In this document: positions 41,159-61,009 of the stretch, one piece after another
Layout: each line of letters opens with the position of its first letter
Position numbering within the stretch: position 1 is the stretch's first letter
Assembly (NCBI GenBank): GCA_029717555.1
Contig: JAMDHS010000013.1
Span: 248,001 to 312,000, forward strand
Direction of reading: 5' to 3'
Length of the DNA stretch: 64,000 nucleotides
Source of the DNA: Peribolospora baueri
Lineage: Eukaryota > Basidiomycota > Peribolosporomycetes > Peribolosporales > Peribolosporaceae
Program-made: the position numbers and the translations under genes
Notes under the pieces: model-generated
Databases searched by the model: none
Told to the model about the DNA's origin: nothing
Seen by the model: only the letters and a program-made list of their open reading frames with translations

Positions 41159-44100
41159 TTAACGTTCTTCCCTCCCAACTGCATCGCCCGCGCCGACGAC
41201 CTGCCTCGCACCCACACCCACACCGCCTCCGAGGCTCCTTCTCAACCACCGCGCCAACTCGGCGCCCCTTAGCCTCTCCGAGCCCGTCAAGCTGAACTGG
41301 AGCTTGACGTACTCGAGCGGCTCAGCACCCGCGGCGCCAGAGAGAGACGGAGAGGAGGATAGGTCGAGCGGCAGGTTGAGCCCGTTGAGGAGCGAGTCCA
41401 ATTCCGGTCCGATCGCCGGTCCCCCACTCGTCGTCCCGGCACTGGGGTGCGCCGAGACGGAGGACGACGACGACGATGGGCGGCGAGCGTCGGCGAGAAG
41501 GAGCGAGCGCAGAGGAGCGAGGCGGGGAAGACCGAAATTGAGCACATCGTTCTTGTTGGCGTTGGCCGGAGGCTTGCGCTCCGAGGAAGAAGCGGAAGAG
41601 AAAGGGTGCTGTCGGCTGGGGGAGAAGACGGGGATGCGCCCGGCGCCAGACCTCCCGTTCGCGTTGTCGTTCGTCGGGCCGTCGCCGCCAAAGTCGGCTT
41701 GCTGCTCCGGCTGGCGCTTCTGTGCGGGCAAGTGCGACGAAAAAGACGGAGCCCGCGAGGCAAAGTCGGAGGCGCGGACGGTGTCGTCCGAAGAAGCGGA
41801 GGAGGGTGACAGAGGCCCGGGAGAGGGAGACGGGGAAGGAGAGATGACCTTGTTCACAGCCAACGCCCCCTCCTCATCCTTCTTCTCGTCCCTCGTGGGC
41901 GCACAAGAAGGTGCAGCGGGTAGGAGGATGGTGAGCTTGGTCGCCTCAGGCGCCGCACACCTGTCCTGGTCTCTGTCTCCTCGGAGCCGCTGCCGAGACA
42001 TGTCATCGTCGACGTCGACGTCCATCCTTTCTCCGTCCTTCTCCTCGCTCTGCCCGTCCGAACTGCGCCCCCTCTCCACGTCGTCGTCATCACCGAGGCT
42101 GCCACCGGCAAGCCCACCATCGAGCAACTCGACGACCGGCGGACCCGCAATGAACAACAAGGCCGCCGGCTGCGCGCCGTTCTCCTCTTCCCTCGACGAG
42201 CTGCCGCCGCTGCCGCCGACGGGCGCGGAGACGGGGCCGTCAATACTGAGCAGGCTCAGCCCGAGCTCGCGGCTCACGCGGTCCCAATCCACGGGCTCGA
42301 ACGTGCGCGGGATGAGGTCCGTGTTCGTGCTCGGACGAGGCGCGTCCGTGTTGCTGTTGCGAGGGACATAGTATGCCACGGCCTTCCTCGTCTCAGGGGT
42401 GGAGCCCCCTGACGGCCTATTAGCTCCAGAAGGAGCGGACGAAGAGATGTTCGAAGCCGCAGCGGCGTCGGGCCAGTCGATGCTGCAGACGGGCAAGAGG
42501 TCAGCCACGTCACGAGGCACGTCGGTGATGGTGCACGAGGCAAGGGAGGCGGAGGTTTGGTCGCTGGACACCGGAGAGATAGCGAGGTCGCGCTCATCGG
42601 AAAGGTGGGAGGTGGGGTGGAGCGAGGAAGGGTCGCCGGAGAAGGAAGAGGAGGCAGCACGGTCTCGCGAGCGAGAGCGGCGCAAGGTGGTCGAGGAGAG
42701 GACGCGACCGAGGGAGAAGGAGGAGCTGAAAAAAATAAAACAATGTAAAGCCAGTCATGTCAGATATCTACTCAGAGCGACCAAAGCGTCCAAGCGCATA
42801 CACGCGCTCTTGGACCGCTCCAAAACCCCGTCCACCCACCTTTCAGTCCCCCAATCAACTCTGGCAACACCGTCGCTGCCACCGAGCCCTCCGGCCCCAG
42901 CGCGCTGCTGCTGATGTCCGCCAGGCAGTCCGAAGAGAGCGAAGCTAAACAAGATAACCATGAGCGCCACCCCGCCGGCACCCTTGCGAGCTGCCGCGCT
43001 CTCGGACTTTATCGTCGAGGTGCCGTCGCGGTGGTGGTGGGAGTGGTGGGAGGTGGAAGGAGAGGGGGAAGGGTAGGGAGAAGAGCCTAGGAAGGCGCTC
43101 TCCTCCGAGCTGCTCATCCCTCCGGCACCGAGGAAGGAAGGAGCCGAACGAGGCGAGGCGGATGAGGAGGGCATCGCTGCCGTCGCCGCCGAAGAGGAGG
43201 AATGGTCAGGGAAGAGCGATGCGAACACCCCCTTTCCGTTTTCCGCGTCGTCGACGAATGGAGAAGGCGGCGGGAAAGGGATTGAGACCATCGCATCCTC
43301 TGCGCCGGCTCGCATGCCGTCGGCGGGGCGACGGTGTTGCCCGTGCTGCTGTGAACGCGAGTGCGAGTGCGCGTAGCTTGGGGAGGTGCTGGAGGTTTCA
43401 ACGCGAAGGTCGGGAGGCTGCGCGGCCTTGCCAGAGGACGAAGTCGTCGAAGCGGGCGGGGTAATGGAGCCTTCCTCCATTTTGACAGCTCCAGCCGGGG
43501 CTCCGGACCAAGCATAAGCGCCAGGCATGAAAGAAGTTTCAGAAGTGGCGCCAGTGTACGACGAAGACTGACCTGAGGCCGAAGCCGGCGAAGAACGCTG
43601 GGAGCGCAGAGAGGCGAGCTCGACTTGCAAGGCAGCCTCTCGCTGCTTGATGGCGTGCAGCTCGGCACGAAGCGACTCGATCTCGCGCATGTGGGCTTGG
43701 CGAGACGGGGAAGGGGAGGAAGACGTCGCTGTGAGCGAGTCCATCTTCTCTTTCTTCACGTTCGCCGTCGTCGCACCGGCCCCCTGCCTTCCCGCGTCAA
43801 TCGCCTCGCGAACCAAAGACCTCGTTTCCTCCTCCTCCTTCTCCAACCACTTCTCCATCCCCTCGGAACAAGCGTCGAACGCGGCCGCCCAAGCGCGATG
43901 GAAAGCCTTGACCCTGATCTCGAGCTCCTCGAACTGTTCCCTTTTACGTTGTCGACTGAGGAAGGCCGCCGCGCGGTTCTTCACCAGCCGAGCCTCGCGC
44001 TTGGTCAGACCGGAGACGTCCGGGGGAACGAAGAGAGAGCTGTGACGGGCAGAAGTGTCGATGACGGGGAGGCGATTGCCTGAAGAGGTGGAGTTGGTAT

Positions 44101-45076
44101 TCGAGTTAGAGACGCCGGAGGAGGAGGCGGCAGACGGTGATGCGAACGACTCGTTGGCCGAACACGCCTCGACGGAAGCGCTCCCGTCGTACGATGGCAC
44201 CGGCGTCATCGACGGCGCCTTGCGCTTGTTCGACTTTTTAGCGCTCTCGCCGCCCTTGTTGCCAGTGCCTTTGGGCGAAGCTTTCAAGTTAGGTCGACGG
44301 GACGAGGCCGCCGAATCTGTCTCCTCGGACTCGAGGCGCCTTCGCTTCTCCCGAGGGCTCTGGCTGCTGACGGAAGCAGAAGAGGTGGTGTCGTCAGTGA
44401 ATGGCGAGGCGAGACGGCCGATGCGCGGTGCGGAGTCAGATGAGCCTTCGTCCTCATCGTCCTCATCGTCGTCGTCATCGTCCGCGGCTCCCCTGCGACT
44501 GGCATTGCCCGCACCGGCGCGGAAGGAGAAGATGGAGGAAGGTGCAGGAGCGATGTCGGCCATGCTAAGGGAGACGGGATCGCTCTCGCTGCCGTTCGCC
44601 GCGCCGCTCCAGGTAGGGTTGGAGGCGGAGGAGGATGAAGACCAAGGGACGGGTGCGATGGAAGGATCGAGCTGGTGAGGCTCGACATGCTTCAAGCCCG
44701 CGCCCGACACGAGGTCCCACGGCGAAGGCGGAGGGTGGGCGAAGAGATGGGAGTCAGAGGCAGGGTCGAGGCGCATGTCGTCGTATCCCGTCTCCGCTTT
44801 CACAGCAGCGTGGGCGGTCCCGGACGTCGAGCCTGTGCTGGCCCAGTCGGGGCCGGAAGCAGAGCCGGGAGACGCATAGCTGATGGGGTCGTCATAAGCA
44901 AGGCTGAAATGGGTGGAGAAAGAGGAAGAGTCGAAGGATTGGGGTTGGTCGAGGAGGTCGTCGTTGATGAAGGACTGAAAGCTGGAGTTGGCGTCGTTGG
45001 CGCTTGCGAGGCCGCCGGCGTTGAGCTGCGGTGTCGAAGGCCTGGGAGGGGCAGCACCGGGCTGGAAGGAGGCCAT
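41159..45076 (-). CDS. Membrane-anchored bZIP transcription factor (ATF6/CREB3-like layout)
   Basis: Two long exons joined by one intron: exon 1 ends WGTE plus AG before a gtgggt donor near 42843, and the acceptor near 42726 continues ESSSFSLGRVLSS in frame. The intron is canonical and the join removes the stop after ALSRYLT. The protein is about 1270 residues. Residues 1-350 are Ser/Asp-rich activation-type sequence. The basic region at about 356-385 (LTKREARLVKNRAAAFLSRQ, RKREQFEELE) resembles ATF6/CREB3. A second coiled-coil-like helix lies near MREIESLRAELHAIKQREAA. At about 701-719 there is one clear hydrophobic segment (GVALMVILFSFALFGLPG), followed by some 530 residues that would face the ER lumen. 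A type II orientation with release by proteolysis is inferred. The lumenal part has PLRSLLLADARR, an RxxL-type site, but that motif is common. Confidence 0.8.
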
Positions 45077-46100: not shown

Positions 46101-47970
46101 ATGTCGTCGTCGCCCCTCTGGAGCACCTTTCTCGGTGACTCCTCCTCCGTCAGGACGGCGCGTGCCGCCGCTCTCGCGCTCAGCGTCACCACCACCCTCG
46201 CCGCGTGGCTGCTCTACCGTCAAAGCCAAATAGCTTTTGCGGATCAGAAGACGCAGAGGAAGAAAGCACCGAGTCCAGCGGAGAGCGACAACGTCGAATC
46301 CCTCCGAGAGGCCTTGGACGCTCTCGAGGAGCAGGGGGAGAGGAATGCCTTGACGCTGGATAGGGAGAATGTGATGACGAGGAAGAAGGAGGTGGCCGAC
46401 ACAGGTCGGGTAGTTGGGCTGTTCTGGGATTACGATGTGCGAGACCCCCTCTTTTTCTTTTTCAGTCACCACTTTCCTGTCCTGATTTTCTAACCTCTCG
46501 CAACTGCACGCAGAACTGCGCACCTCCGAAAGGCTCCACGGGCGGACAAGTGGTGGGCAAGCTCCGCCAGATGGCCCAGAGCTACGGTACCATCTCTACC
46601 ATGAAGGCTTACCTCGACATCAACCTCATGGAACAAGGCAAGGATGGCGGCTTGCCCCAGGAGAAGCTCCTTTCCCAGTTGGCTGACTCGGGCGTCAGTC
46701 TGGTCTTTACGCCCAAAAGTGGCCGCAAGAACGTGGCCGATCAGAGAGTGCGCCTGTCGACGACCTTTCTGTGCCCGAGAACGCCTGCCTCACTCCTTCC
46801 TTGCTCTTCCTCCTTTCCTCGACACAGATGATCACCGATCTGATGGCCTTTGCAATCGACAACCCCGCCCCAGCCACGCTCGTAGTCGTCTCCGGCGACC
46901 GCGACTTTTCCTATACCCTCGGCACGCTCCGAAACCGACGGTACGAAATCGTCCTCGTGCTGCCGCCGGTCGGCGCTAACGTTAACGTCAAGCAGCAAGC
47001 CAACAAAGTACTCATGTGGCGTGCAGATGTTCTCGGCATCAGCGGCGGCATCGGCACCCACGCCTTGGAGGAAGAGGCCCCGGCTTTGGCCAACAGCGAC
47101 ATGGCACCAAGCACAAGTTCGTTGGCGTCTCCCAAGAAGAGAGAAAACGCCCCTGAGACGCAAGACACGAGGGCCGATCATAAAACTAAGTTCTTTCCCG
47201 ACGCAGTGTCACCCGCTTCACCCAGCACCCGCACACCAGACGTCTTCGCGCCACTTATCGAAACCCTAAACGAATATTCAAAACGCGGTATCACCCGCGC
47301 TTTCCGTAAACCCATGCTCGCCCAACTCGCGAAGCGCTATCCGTTCGCTGCCTCCTCAACGGGCCTGGGCAAGAACGATTGGATGGGCTACCTGGCTTTG
47401 GCGGAGAGCATCGGTATCATCCAGCAAGGGTCCATGCCGGAAAAGCCAGGATCCGAATGGGTATGGTTCTCCGACGAGCGACATCATCGACAGCAGCAAC
47501 AGCTGCCGCTGCAGCAATCTCCGCTGCCGCAATGGCATCAACAGAAGAAGAGCGTGCAGACGAGCGATCCCGTCACTAAGCCCTCTGGCACCGGCGGAAG
47601 CTCCACCCCTTCGACGCCCTTTTCTTCTCCAATTAAGCGCGGCTCCGACCCGACTGTCCCCGACAACCTTCCTTTCGAGCTTCAACCTTTCCTGCCCCTC
47701 CTCTCCATCCTAGAGGCCCGCCGTCTCGTGGGCGATATTCGCCCGCTTTGCTCCTATGTCGGCGCGCAGCTCGGACAGCTCTCCCTCGCCAAAAGCGGGA
47801 ACCGCAAAGACGTGTACGCCCAAGCGCACACGGACGGGTGGAAGAAATATGCGGAGATCGCCCAGGCGGAGGGTCTGGTTAAGATCGTCGAGACGGACAA
47901 GGAGGGCATATTGGCCGTCAGGTTGAAGAGGAAGTGGGTCGGCGTCGTTCAACCTGCAAATATTGTGTGA
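46101..47970 (+). CDS. NYN-domain (PIN-like nuclease) protein with N-terminal membrane anchor
   Basis: Start at ATG 46101 (MSSSPLWSTFLGDSSSV). Residues about 20-38 (RAAALALSVTTTLAAWLLY) form one hydrophobic segment, so the protein is probably membrane anchored. The NYN domain follows: VVGLFWDYD joins through an intron to NCAPPKGSTGGQVV, then GTISTMKAYLDINLM, SGVSLVFTPKSGRKNVADQ, and, after another intron, MITDLMAFAIDNPAPATLVVVSGDRDFSYTLGTLRNR. The acidic residues expected for a PIN-fold nuclease (WDYDN and SGDRDF) are kept. The C-terminal half has two LOTUS/OST-HTH-like helical segments (FAPLIETLNEYSKRGITRAF and FLPLLSILEARRLVGDIRP with YAEIAQAEGLVKIVE). This is the MARF1/limkain plan: NYN plus OST-HTH. 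RNA cleavage at a membrane is the inferred role. Ends at 47970. Confidence 0.82.
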
Positions 47971-56592: not shown

Positions 56593-59562
56593 TCAATCCT
56601 TGGACCTCAAACCGGCCAAGATCTCCTTGAGCCTCTCATACTCCGGCTCGTCCTCGAAAGAGTCCTTGGTCCGGCCCAAGAAGGCGCGTACGATGCTCCT
56701 CGCCTGGAACTTCCAGTCCTTCAACGCCGGCTCTGTCCGCCCTTCGCCCTGTCCTCCCTCTCCCGCGGACACCGCCACCTCCCTGGGCCCGAGGTTCTCC
56801 AAATACTCCGCCATCTCCTCCACCTCCTGTGCCGCCTTTCTGAACTTCTCTACACTCGTTTCCGCCCCTCCCGCGTCATCCGAGCCCGCTCCACACCGGA
56901 ACGCCTTCAGGTACGCGTCAATCGCCCCGCGGTAATCGCCCCGCCACAGAAGAAGGCGGGCGTAGGCGCGAAAGGTGCGAGGAGAGGAGGCGATGCGGGG
57001 TAGGATGGCCGTCGTGAACAGGCGCTCCACGCGCGGATACAGACCGTGCCCTTCGTTCGGGTTGTGCTCCACCTTGGTCGCCGTCTCGCCCGCGAGCGCG
57101 GACGGCTCTTGCACGGCATCTTCCTCCCTCGACGGAGCCCGAGTGACGGCGTCGACCAACCTTTCCAGAACATCTTCGTCCACGGCCTTTTCGCCTATCT
57201 TGGGCGCCAGAATGTCCACGAGCCTTGCCATGGCCCGACACGCCTCGGAGAGCTCGCCCACGTCGACAGCGACAATCATATAGTTGGTCCAGATGCGCCA
57301 GCTCTCCTGACTGTGTCGGATGCCTTGGCGGAGCGCGTTGAAGGCGTCGCGCTTTCGAGCGTAGGGCACCCCCGAGGCGGTAGGACGCGTCGAGAGCGCA
57401 CCGTGGCTGAGCGACACGGCTGCCTGCTCTTCATCGTCCTCGTCAAGGGCAGGATCATGAACAGACTGGACTTTGTCCGCACCTTCCTCCCCCATGCGCA
57501 AATACACGCTCGCGAGGTTGTTCCAGCTCTCGCCGTCCTCGTCGTCCAAGGCGACGCACCTCCCGAACGCTGTTGCCGCTTCCTCCCAGTCCTCTGCGCG
57601 CATCGCCGCGCAGCCGAGGACGAACCATGAGCGCGTGTAGAGCGGGTTGATGGATAACGCCGTCTTGAGCGGTTCAATAGACTCCGCAAACTCGCCTCGA
57701 GCATAGTGGTATCCGCCCAGAGAGCGCATGGCACGAGAGCTCTGATGATGAGACACCTCCCATGCCGTATGGTAGTGCTTTGGCTCCTTCTCGAGATCAC
57801 CCAACAGACACCACAGCTTGGCCTTTCTGCCGTCGCTCATCCTGGCCTTGCTCCTCTCCTCTGGAGCGCGCGCCCCCGTCCTGGACTCCGCGATGCGCAC
57901 TTCCACCTCCTTCCTCCTCCCTTCGAGCAAATCCCTGACGACCTCGACGCCTTTATCTTCCCTCTCTAGCAACTGCCAACACGCCACCACGTCTTCCCAC
58001 ATCTCCAGGCGCTCGAAGATCTCCAGCGCCGAGCGCACGACCCCGATGCTGAGGTATCGCTTGGCGAGTTCGTGCTGCATCTCCCACCTCGACGGCAGTG
58101 GCATCGAATGGAAGTATCGCAGTCGCTCCTGAAGCGTCGAGTCTGTCGTCGGCATCTGGTCGATGAGCGCCTGCAGCTGCAACGCCGAGCGCTCGACGGT
58201 GCGAGAGCGGTTGGACTCGAGTCGAGAGCGGAGGAGAAGTGCCATCGTGTGCACAGACCAGTTCATCGGGTTCTCTAGGACACGAGCCACAAACGCCATC
58301 ATCTGCTCCGACGTCAGGCCATGTGAGGGGTTCATGTTGCGGATGTTGAGGCAGAGCGCAAGGAGGACGCATTGGTCAAGCGGATGTAACTTGGGTTGGG
58401 AGCCCGGCTGGATGTGCGAGAGCTTGCCATGCGAAGACTCCGGTTTAGAGGTGGTCGTGTACTTGGTATGTTCCAGGAGCGTATCGTCGTTGAGACTGAG
58501 CGTCGTAGGCACCGCCGCGGCTCCTGTCTCTCCCTCCTTTTGACCAACTACCGTATCTGGAGAATCTTGCTTCTCTTTTCCTTCCGACCGTCGCACCACG
58601 TTCTCCTTGGCCCCTTCGTCTTGATCATTCCTCTCTTCCCGCTCCCTACTTTCCGCAAGCAGGACGAGCTGGCTCAGGTCCTTGCTTTGGAACTTGGTCT
58701 TCCTCCCCAGTGCGCCCGTAAGCACGTACTCCAAGCCACTCTGCCGCGCCGCTTCAACAAACAGATCCGCCGCTTCCCGGTCCTGACCGAAGTGGTGAGG
58801 CACGAGTCCTCGTTCGAGGGTGAGCCGAGCGTGAAGATCTGATCGCCAGGATGGAGGGAATGCAGAAATGTCGGAAGAGGAAGAGGACGAGTCGTAGGCA
58901 AGGGAGGAGAGGAGCTTCTGCACGCGAGAAAGAACGTCTTCGGGAACGGGAACGGGCTCGTCAAGAAGATGCTGATGTACCATTGCGGCTCGAAGTCGCC
59001 ACCAGTGAATAGACTCTAGTCGCTGGAAGGGTAGAGCAAAGACGAGTTGGGCAAGGACAAGGAAGGAGGGGTGTTTGGGAAGGTGGTATGCGGGCTCACC
59101 GCCGTATTGCAGACGGCCGAGCGCGGAGGCGTGCACATCATCTTCGGACGTCGAACTCGACGACGACGGGAGATTCAACACGGCGAGCGGTGTGACGTCG
59201 AGATCAGGGCCGGTCCAGTTGGCTTGAACGAAGGCGTGCAGGGCGGCGACGCCGACGGCGAGCATGATCAGCTCGTTTTCGTCGTCGGAGACGAAGCGGG
59301 TAGACTCCCGGACGACAGAGAGGTTTTCAAAATCGAACACTGAAGACGATGGATCGCGACTGGTCTCAGGAAAAGACGCGGAGAAAAGCTCCTTCGCCCA
59401 CCTCGAGGTCAGCGCTTCAGAAAGGTCTCCGTGGACGACCTGTCGAGCAAGTTGGACGGCTGGAGACTGCGCTGCGTCCTTGTCGTCCACGTCGCCATGC
59501 AGGATCCAAGTACCCTCTATCAAACACCATTGTGCCTCGTTCGGCGAGGCTGAGGAGGCCAT
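56593..59562 (-). CDS. EMW1: TPR protein TTC27/Emw1
   Basis: Single-exon protein of 989 residues, if the ATG at 59562 (MASSASPNEAQWCLIEGTW) is the start. The same frame stays open further upstream to 59838, but that would overlap the divergent eL8 gene, so I prefer the internal ATG. The C-terminal TPR array is diagnostic: RWEMQHELAKRYLSIGVVRS, LWCLLGDLEKEPKHYHTAWE, RAMRSLGGYHYARGEFAESI, LSINPLYTRSWFVLGCAAMR, FGRCVALDDEDGESWNNLAS, IWTNYMIVAVDVGELSEACR. This is the pattern of human TTC27 (CLLGDV.., WFSLGCAY.., AWNNLS..). The human protein is essential and linked to ribosome and thyroid biology; in fission yeast emw1 affects cell-wall integrity and protein traffic. The exact reaction is unknown. 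Confidence 0.88.
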   Translation of the reverse strand: MASSASPNEAQWCLIEGTWILHGDVDDKDAAQSPAVQLARQVVHGDLSEALTSRWAKELFSASFPETSRDPSSSVFDFENLSVVRESTRFVSDDENELIMLAVGVAALHAFVQANWTGPDLDVTPLAVLNLPSSSSSTSEDDVHASALGRLQYGGEPAYHLPKHPSFLVLAQLVFALPFQRLESIHWWRLRAAMVHQHLLDEPVPVPEDVLSRVQKLLSSLAYDSSSSSSDISAFPPSWRSDLHARLTLERGLVPHHFGQDREAADLFVEAARQSGLEYVLTGALGRKTKFQSKDLSQLVLLAESREREERNDQDEGAKENVVRRSEGKEKQDSPDTVVGQKEGETGAAAVPTTLSLNDDTLLEHTKYTTTSKPESSHGKLSHIQPGSQPKLHPLDQCVLLALCLNIRNMNPSHGLTSEQMMAFVARVLENPMNWSVHTMALLLRSRLESNRSRTVERSALQLQALIDQMPTTDSTLQERLRYFHSMPLPSRWEMQHELAKRYLSIGVVRSALEIFERLEMWEDVVACWQLLEREDKGVEVVRDLLEGRRKEVEVRIAESRTGARAPEERSKARMSDGRKAKLWCLLGDLEKEPKHYHTAWEVSHHQSSRAMRSLGGYHYARGEFAESIEPLKTALSINPLYTRSWFVLGCAAMRAEDWEEAATAFGRCVALDDEDGESWNNLASVYLRMGEEGADKVQSVHDPALDEDDEEQAAVSLSHGALSTRPTASGVPYARKRDAFNALRQGIRHSQESWRIWTNYMIVAVDVGELSEACRAMARLVDILAPKIGEKAVDEDVLERLVDAVTRAPSREEDAVQEPSALAGETATKVEHNPNEGHGLYPRVERLFTTAILPRIASSPRTFRAYARLLLWRGDYRGAIDAYLKAFRCGAGSDDAGGAETSVEKFRKAAQEVEEMAEYLENLGPREVAVSAGEGGQGEGRTEPALKDWKFQARSIVRAFLGRTKDSFEDEPEYERLKEILAGLRSKD

Positions 59563-59817
59563 AATGGACGGCGGAAAACGAGGGCTGAGTATGTACAAGA
59601 GGGAAGCAACTCTTCTCTTTCCAAGCCAATCCTTCCCGCGTCGCGTTGCACTTCGGCCTTGCCGCAGCACAATTATCAGTATAAAGCTGCGGTATGCGCG
59701 TAATTCCCACGCTGCGACCGCTTTCTGGCGAAGGGAATTTTCACTCCTTACAAATGTCTTGGTCGAGCCATCACCATCCACGAACTCCAACCTCAACAAC
59801 GACCACCCGCCGTCAAA
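59563..59817. promoter_or_regulatory. Shared divergent promoter of TTC27 and ribosomal protein eL8
   Basis: 255 bp between the two start codons. Pyrimidine-rich tracts lie in front of the eL8 start (caacgaccacccgccgtcaaaATG context). Shared control of a ribosomal protein and a presumed biogenesis factor is plausible. Confidence 0.4.
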
Positions 59818-61009
59818 ATGGTAGGTTCTGTCGGGCAAAAGAAGGAAGAAGGCAGATGCCAGACGTACTATGATGAAGATAAGGATTGCTGTCGACTCAC
59901 GTCGCTACACATCGTTGCATCTTCTGTCTGTGCTCTCCTACTCCCTCCCGCCCATCTTCGCCTCGCGCCCCCTGCCGGCTTTCCGTCTTCTTCTCCTCGG
60001 CCCCCATAGCCCAAGGCCAAGTCCGGTTCCAGCAAGAAGCCCGCGCCCGCCCCCTACTCCAAGGGCAAGGCTGCGCCCAAGACGCCTAAGAACCCTCTCT
60101 TCGAGGCCAAGCCCCGCAGCTTCAGCGTCGGTGAGTATCGTCACTGGTGTTGCGCAACAAGTTAAAGATGGAGCGAGTTTGGAGTAATGTTGCATGCTAA
60201 CTCGCTGAACGTACACCCTCTTAGGCCAGGACCTCCAGCCCGCTCGTGACCTGACCCGCTTCGTCAAGTGGCCGGAGTACGTTCGCCTCCAGCGCGCTCG
60301 GGTGATCATCAACCAGCGCCTCAAGGTCCCTCCCCCGATCGCCCAGTTCTCCCACACCCTTGACAAGAACACGGCCACTCAGCTTTTCCGTCTCGTTAAC
60401 AAGTACCGCCCTGAGTCGAAGCAGGAGAAGAAGGAGCGTCTGGCCAAGCAGGCTCAGGAGGTGGCCGATGGCAAGAAGGAGGACCCGAAGAAGGATGGCA
60501 AGAAGCCCCTCTTCGTCAAGTCCGGCCTTAACCACGTCGTCGCCCTCGTCGAGGCCAAGAAGGCCAACCTCGTCGTCATCGCCGACGACGTCGACCCCAT
60601 CGAGCTCGTCATTGCTCTCCCCGCCCTTTGCCGCAAGATGGGCGTGCCCTACTGCATCGTCAAAGGCAAGGCTCGTCTCGGCGCTGTCGTCCACCGCAAG
60701 ACCTCGTCCTGCCTTGCTGTCCAGGACGTGCGTTCCGAGGACCAGAAGGAGCTTTCTACCCTCGTCTCTGCTGTCAAGGCAAACTACAACGACAAGTACG
60801 AGGAGCACCGCCGCCACTGGGGTGGTGGTGTCCGTGGGCAGAAGAGCCAGCGTAAGTTTTCACTCTCCCTGGATGAATTGAGGAAAATGTACGGACCAGA
60901 CCGAGAATTGCTGACCTTTGTCCTCTATTTCCCTGGCTTCTGTTCTGCAGAGATGCTCCGCAAGAGGGCGAAGGCTACCGGTCAAGCTCTCAAGGATGTC
61001 GCGCTCTGA
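59818..61009 (+). CDS. RPL8: 60S ribosomal protein eL8 (L7Ae family, Rpl8)
   Basis: Large-subunit ribosomal protein that binds a kink-turn. The first exon holds only the start codon: ATG 59818-59820 is followed directly by a gtaggt donor, and exon 2 begins at 60010 with [20 protein letters not shown]. Then [41 protein letters not shown], the L7Ae core [20 protein letters not shown] and [20 protein letters not shown], then [13 protein letters not shown]. The last intron (about 60852-60950) leads to [18 protein letters not shown], stop 61007-61009. Length about 265 residues, normal. A large exon carries most of the codons, as expected for a highly expressed gene with heavy bias toward C-ending codons. 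Confidence 0.96.

Follow-up and report, generated by a model that had tools for sequence, protein, structure and literature searches.

A two-exon bZIP gene with a predicted membrane-spanning segment in the fungus Peribolospora baueri

Could a fungus possess a bZIP transcription factor that is held at a membrane and released by proteolysis, in the manner of animal ATF6? The question is raised by a gene on contig JAMDHS010000013.1 of the basidiomycete Peribolospora baueri (GenBank assembly GCA_029717555.1), located in a window of 64,000 nucleotides (nt) that represents positions 248,001 to 312,000 of the forward strand and in which position 1 is the first letter. The unfolded-protein response (UPR) of fungi is described as IRE1 together with one spliced bZIP factor (PMC3154848, PMC6490947), and ATF6-type factors are described in animals, with counterparts in plants (PMC6025073). 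At the level of sequence anatomy, there is good support for a fungal gene that combines a bZIP with a segment hydrophobic enough to span a membrane. The chances that the product is a regulated-proteolysis factor appear to us about evenly balanced, and a role as a sensor of endoplasmic reticulum (ER) stress is the weaker part of the proposal.

Read on the minus strand, the gene starts with an ATG at 45076, which sits within an open frame of 844 codons, and ends with a TAA at 41159; its two exons encode a product of 1267 residues. Its elements are the following:

42840 to 45076, minus strand: exon 1, residues 1-745 plus 2 nt, with an acidic and serine-rich N-terminus, the bZIP, a coiled coil and the membrane segment
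43898 to 44005, minus strand: basic region of the bZIP with the first part of the zipper, residues 358-393, matched by Pfam bZIP_1 and also recovered by the genome search
43598 to 43690, minus strand: second coiled coil, residues 463-493, where the heptad pattern is better, with hydrophobic residues at 7 of 8 a/d positions
42926 to 42982, minus strand: predicted membrane-spanning segment, residues 699-717, GAGGVALMVILFSFALFGL, indicated by insertion energy, shuffles and a modelled helix
42726 to 42839, minus strand: spliceosomal intron of 114 nt, GTGGGT...CTGAC...TTTTTTCAG
41159 to 42725, minus strand: exon 2, residues 746-1267 and the stop codon, the predicted lumenal part, without a known domain
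41498 to 41509, minus strand: RSLL, residues 1152-1155, a proposed site-1 protease (S1P) site 435 residues beyond the segment

The intron has a GTGGGT donor matching at all 4 scored positions, a branch-like CTGAC and the acceptor TTTTTTCAG (13 of 15 pyrimidines); of the gene's three strong intron candidates, it alone keeps the frame. To set the scale, 11 gaps between matched exons were taken from the signal peptide peptidase (SPP), IRE1, kexin and two lyase genes of the same genome (22.1 Mb, 178 contigs), with introns that are inferred rather than observed; in 10 of these 11 gaps, the donor of the best candidate scored 3-4 of 4. Codon usage, trained on 3531 codons from domain-matched frames that were mostly lengthened by up to 60 codons, favoured the frame given here for each of the two pieces of exon 1 and for all four quarters of exon 2, disfavouring a non-coding exon 2. 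The canonical intron and the continuous frame claimed in a preliminary description of the locus are thus borne out. On the opposite strand, a 402-codon frame (window 41163-42368, plus strand) is disfavoured as the true gene; because codon usage favours exon 2, this frame is probably a by-product of composition. The host is indeed a fungus, as had been assumed: the Fungal_trans domain occurs in 26 stretches of the genome compared with 0 of 14 prokaryote controls, and kexin is present. When exon 1 was searched against the same genome for paralogues, only the self-match was found at E 0.01.

Pfam bZIP_1 matched residues 358-393 with 29.6 bits (cut-off 27.6) over profile positions 4-39 of 64, in agreement with the earlier claim of a bZIP, and bZIP_2 scored 17.2 bits, below its cut-off of 22.3. 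The closest sequence of solved structure was that of CREB, at an insignificant E of 0.12. The preliminary description had also called the layout and the basic region ATF6/CREB3-like; the layout, a bZIP followed by a single predicted segment, stands, whereas membership of the ATF6/CREB3 family is supported neither by the CREB score nor by the C-terminal part, which matched nothing. The basic region appears closer to plant bZIP28 (plant group B) than to human ATF6. No heptad window adjoining the basic region has 7 of 8 hydrophobic a/d positions; the one that has is at residues 463-493. This better coiled coil lies about 70 residues past the basic region with the heptad register kept, as L385 and L469 are 84 residues apart. 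An AlphaFold2 model built without an alignment contains a helix at residues 359-433 (pLDDT, the model's confidence score, about 90 over most of it) and further helices at residues 441-451 and 457-494. Between the basic region and the coiled coil there is an in-frame intron candidate, 43776-43696, with a donor score of 3 of 4 and 12 of 15 pyrimidines; its splicing could shorten the distance between them.

On an insertion-energy scale with provisional coefficients, residues 699-717 scored -0.95 (dG) and the next-best segment +3.15, so that a single segment below +3 was present in the 1267 residues; the best 19-residue window of the protein was equalled by none of 200 composition shuffles. This is the one hydrophobic segment of the preliminary description, which had placed it at residues 701-719. 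It does follow the bZIP, with distances slightly different from those first given: the segment begins about 305 rather than 315 residues past the basic region and is followed by 550 rather than about 530 residues. The glycophorin control reached -1.8 on the same scale, and the S2P (site-2 protease) and SPP pieces of the same genome fell between -0.64 and -1.29 in 4 of 7 cases and above zero in the other 3, which makes the scale an imperfect detector. Among 14 other bZIP or bHLH frames of the genome, which are single open frames and not full gene models, the best segment was at +2.86 or worse in 13. The exception, the bHLH locus L022 (G000:C146; -3.5), shows a strong but false membrane segment, apparently a GTGAGT...CAG intron that has been translated, and is a caution for membrane-segment scans of unspliced fungal DNA. 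The same explanation is not supported for residues 699-717, as introns overlapping them have donor scores of at most 2 of 4, compared with 3-4 of 4 in 10 of the 11 inferred introns. In the unaligned AlphaFold2 model, residues 698-715 are helical (pLDDT 62-69 by block), and no other helix of at least four residues occurs past residue 494.

The insertion-energy scan found no hydrophobic segment before residue 699; with no earlier segment usable as a signal peptide, the protein, if inserted, would therefore most simply be type II. Tentatively, and with somewhat less than even confidence, we favour a membrane-tethered type II bZIP factor, most likely of the ER, that would be released by intramembrane proteolysis through S2P or SPP. 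The N-terminal 698 residues, comprising the acidic and serine-rich region, the basic region and the coiled coils, would be cytosolic, the helix at residues 699-717 would span an endomembrane, most likely that of the ER, and the 550 residues beyond it would be lumenal. The tethered bZIP would stay inactive until it is cut within the membrane. That cut would most likely be made by S2P, once some protease that is not S1P has made the first one, or else by SPP, and the freed bZIP part would then move to the nucleus. What the sequence shows is the structure of the gene, the bZIP, a coding exon 2, a segment hydrophobic enough to span a membrane, and genes for an S2P-like protease, SPP, an IRE1 RNase and a separate HAC1-like factor; that the protein enters a membrane, in which topology, that it is cleaved and that it answers to stress or lipids is what we infer.

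The same genome contains an S2P-like gene (L017, G000:C146:52500-58000), with one Peptidase_M50 stretch over the cut-off and the motif NLLPAWRLDG at about 3330; an HEAGH motif at about 1588 lies 1.7 kb upstream in a different frame and is taken as belonging to the same gene. An SPP gene was also found. Subtilases are represented by six Peptidase_S8 stretches in four genes, which are nearest to TPP2, proteinase K, a subtilisin/C5a-type enzyme and kexin (one of these comparisons drew on the best 60 of 150 hits); the kexin piece scored 243 bits against kexin and 185 bits against furin. As for the first cut, the RSLL sequence, put forward in the preliminary description as an RxxL-type site, is not supported as an S1P site. 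It is one of three RxxL sequences in the 548 C-terminal residues, below the shuffle mean of 4.2 (824 of 1000 shuffles contained three or more), it lies far from the segment, within 60 residues of which no RxxL occurs, and it probably arose by chance. The looser RxL occurs six times in the C-terminal part against a shuffle mean of 4.2, as many being present in 222 of 1000 shuffles, and although one of this type, RVLS at residue 753, is near the segment, 353 of 1000 shuffles also place an RxL there. Judged by its sequence, the C-terminal part offers clear evidence for neither an ATF6-like lumenal domain nor S1P cleavage.

How would such a factor relate to the known fungal pathway? An IRE1 RNase domain is represented by two matching stretches in the same genome, and a separate bZIP gene (L018, G000:C107:104500-108500, positions 1105-2970; Pfam 34.8 bits) has an anatomy like that of HAC1, with an open frame continuing past the bZIP and an overlapping alternative downstream C-terminal frame. 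Its two IRE1-like hairpins would be cut after 2169 and after 2255, 86 nt apart, which would switch the frame as needed; among 100 codon shuffles, 3 contained a pair at least as good and 15 a single hairpin at least as good. We regard this gene as a candidate HAC1/Hxl1/Cib1 gene. The bZIP gene with the predicted membrane segment was rejected as an IRE1 target of the HAC1/XBP1/Hxl1 type, as 21 of 100 codon shuffles contain a hairpin pair at least as good as its best one; it has no hairpin under strict rules (shuffle mean 0.24), two under loose rules (mean 1.98) and 15 in an energy scan (5-16 in ten shuffles). As the genome has a HAC1-like gene at another locus as well as an IRE1 RNase domain, the tethered bZIP would be an extra branch. 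A fuller proposal, which we consider unlikely as a whole, is that it provides a second ER-to-nucleus route, with the tethered bZIP and not SREBP as the main client of S2P and with an S1P-free entry, running parallel to IRE1 and the HAC1-like factor. If true, this route would correspond in fungi to the ATF6 branch, or would have been invented independently of it, and it could explain why S2P is reported to act without SREBP in Phaffia.

Stp1, the S2P homologue of the basidiomycete Phaffia rhodozyma, has effects on unfolded-protein-binding genes and on sensitivity to dithiothreitol (DTT) that are apparently independent of Sre1 and are described as exploratory by the authors, who suggest further membrane-bound factors, the clients of Stp1 besides Sre1 being unidentified in that account (PMC12732919). 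The bZIP described here is possibly the kind of S2P client postulated there. Loss of SPP in Phaffia lowers chaperone expression and, in one background, raises DTT sensitivity (PMC13026331), and Ustilago spp1 is UPR-induced, with substrates postulated and yet to be found (PMC6490947). Were the P. baueri bZIP tethered, fungi would have an ATF6-like route, whether ancestral or newly arisen, and basidiomycete S2P would gain a testable client.

Comparison with known systems shows what is shared and what is not. Like animal ATF6 and CREB3/OASIS, the protein has its bZIP towards the N-terminus, a single predicted membrane segment and a long C-terminal part, and its genome has an S2P-like gene. In contrast to them, it is fungal, no S1P was recognised, its C-terminal part is without a known domain, and its segment is about 305 residues past the basic region, with the better coiled coil about 70 residues from that region. 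Fungal HAC1 has been grouped by its bZIP with metazoan ATF6-OASIS, and the ATF6-specific domain was reported as undetected in fungal orthologues (PMC4736632). Plant bZIP28/bZIP17 and bZIP60 are likewise membrane-tethered bZIP factors, but the present gene has no convincing IRE1 splice pair. Fungal HAC1/HacA/Hxl1/Cib1 share with it a fungal bZIP and a possible link to ER stress; these factors are activated by IRE1 splicing (PMC3154848), whereas the present gene is without convincing IRE1 sites and L018 is the separate candidate. Fungal SREBP (Sre1), released by the S2P Stp1, is a membrane-bound transcription factor as well (PMC12732919), but SREBPs are bHLH proteins with two membrane helices, whereas the present factor is a bZIP for which a single helix is predicted, and the searches described below recognised no SREBP in the genome. 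The likeness to ATF6, CREB3 and plant bZIP28 would thus be one of working mode and not of demonstrated family membership.

The best-surviving alternative, which is possible although on the unlikely side, is an ordinary nuclear bZIP factor in which the hydrophobic patch stays out of the membrane and serves as a degron, a co-factor-binding helix or a buried core, the C-terminal part being disordered and regulatory. Several observations weigh against tethering and mostly favour this alternative. Searches of PDB, NCBIfam and Pfam up to E 10 matched nothing to the C-terminal part; it is acidic (71 D/E versus 56 K/R) and rich in serine (16%, compared with 20% in the N-terminal part), and it contains a single N-glycosylation sequon, compared with five in the N-terminal part. 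When modelled without an alignment, it is largely devoid of structure (mean pLDDT 40 for exon 2), with a strand-helix-strand near residues 1218-1253 at a pLDDT of about 70 over most of it; it does have four cysteines, compared with two in the longer N-terminal part. From these features, the C-terminal part reads as resembling the tail of a nuclear protein as much as a lumenal domain. Charge asymmetry around residues 699-717 is weak, and the energy scale uses the provisional coefficients mentioned above. S1P was not recognised among the four subtilase genes, although a missed gene or a PDB copy without S1P is possible, and the SREBP searches described below do not prove absence. One scan each of viral and prokaryote contigs for relatives gave 12 and 383 pattern matches, none of which was confirmed; none is expected in these collections, as neither is fungal. 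Finally, no report of a membrane-tethered fungal bZIP was present among the literature matches listed, most subscription journals being outside the searched text. What argues against a purely nuclear factor is the segment itself, with its insertion energy of -0.95 equalled in none of 200 shuffles, its place within the range of 4 of the 7 S2P and SPP pieces, and its predicted helix.

A second alternative, quite unlikely in our view, retains the tether and dispenses with the sensing of unfolded proteins: the factor would replace SREBP as the client of S2P, responding to sterols, lipids or another endomembrane state, or would stay at the nuclear envelope. It draws on an S2P-like gene that is without an evident client, as no SREBP was found. 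The search via DUF2014 gave no match, with nothing scoring anywhere, which is not proof of absence; eight HLH stretches exceeded the threshold, and the tyrosine of EKRYR was present in none of them; the human SREBP bHLH query hit three places, all within these eight; and the HxxxEKRYR pattern had 0 matches in the DNA of the genome, although an SREBP that has diverged, or whose motif is split by an intron, would escape it. In addition, IRE1 and the separate HAC1-like gene could already handle protein-folding stress. However, the absence of SREBP is unproven, and the loss of Stp1 in Phaffia affects protein-folding genes (PMC12732919).

A gene-model error that leaves the segment or exon 2 outside the mature mRNA is very improbable. 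The unspliced frame meets a stop at 42755-42757, within the intron, so a retained intron would end the protein soon after the segment with a short tail; against such an error stand the coding signal in all four quarters of exon 2 and the best donor for an intron overlapping the segment, 2 of 4. Least credible of all is dual regulation as in plant bZIP60, with an mRNA that is an IRE1 target and splicing that alters the membrane-bound form, for although two IRE1-like hairpins lie 29 nt apart just past the segment (cuts after 42911 and 42882), pairs as good or better arise in 21 of 100 codon shuffles, the L018 pair is rarer (3 of 100), and both sites are downstream of the segment, so that splicing would leave it in place.

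Other loci were noted in passing. On the opposite strand, past the 5' end of the bZIP gene, window 46687-47967 (plus strand) holds an open frame with an NYN domain (38.4 bits). A 1103-codon frame with tetratricopeptide repeats lies at window 56596-59904 (minus strand). Elsewhere in the genome, two aromatic ammonia-lyase loci (L037-L044; G000:C113 and C116) are broken into many matched stretches. A piece of 58 residues from an ammonia-lyase, considered as a taxonomic marker, gave no placement of the species, as it scored 52 bits against plant-type phenylalanine ammonia-lyases (PALs) and 43 bits against 1t6j/1y2m, the red-yeast enzyme.

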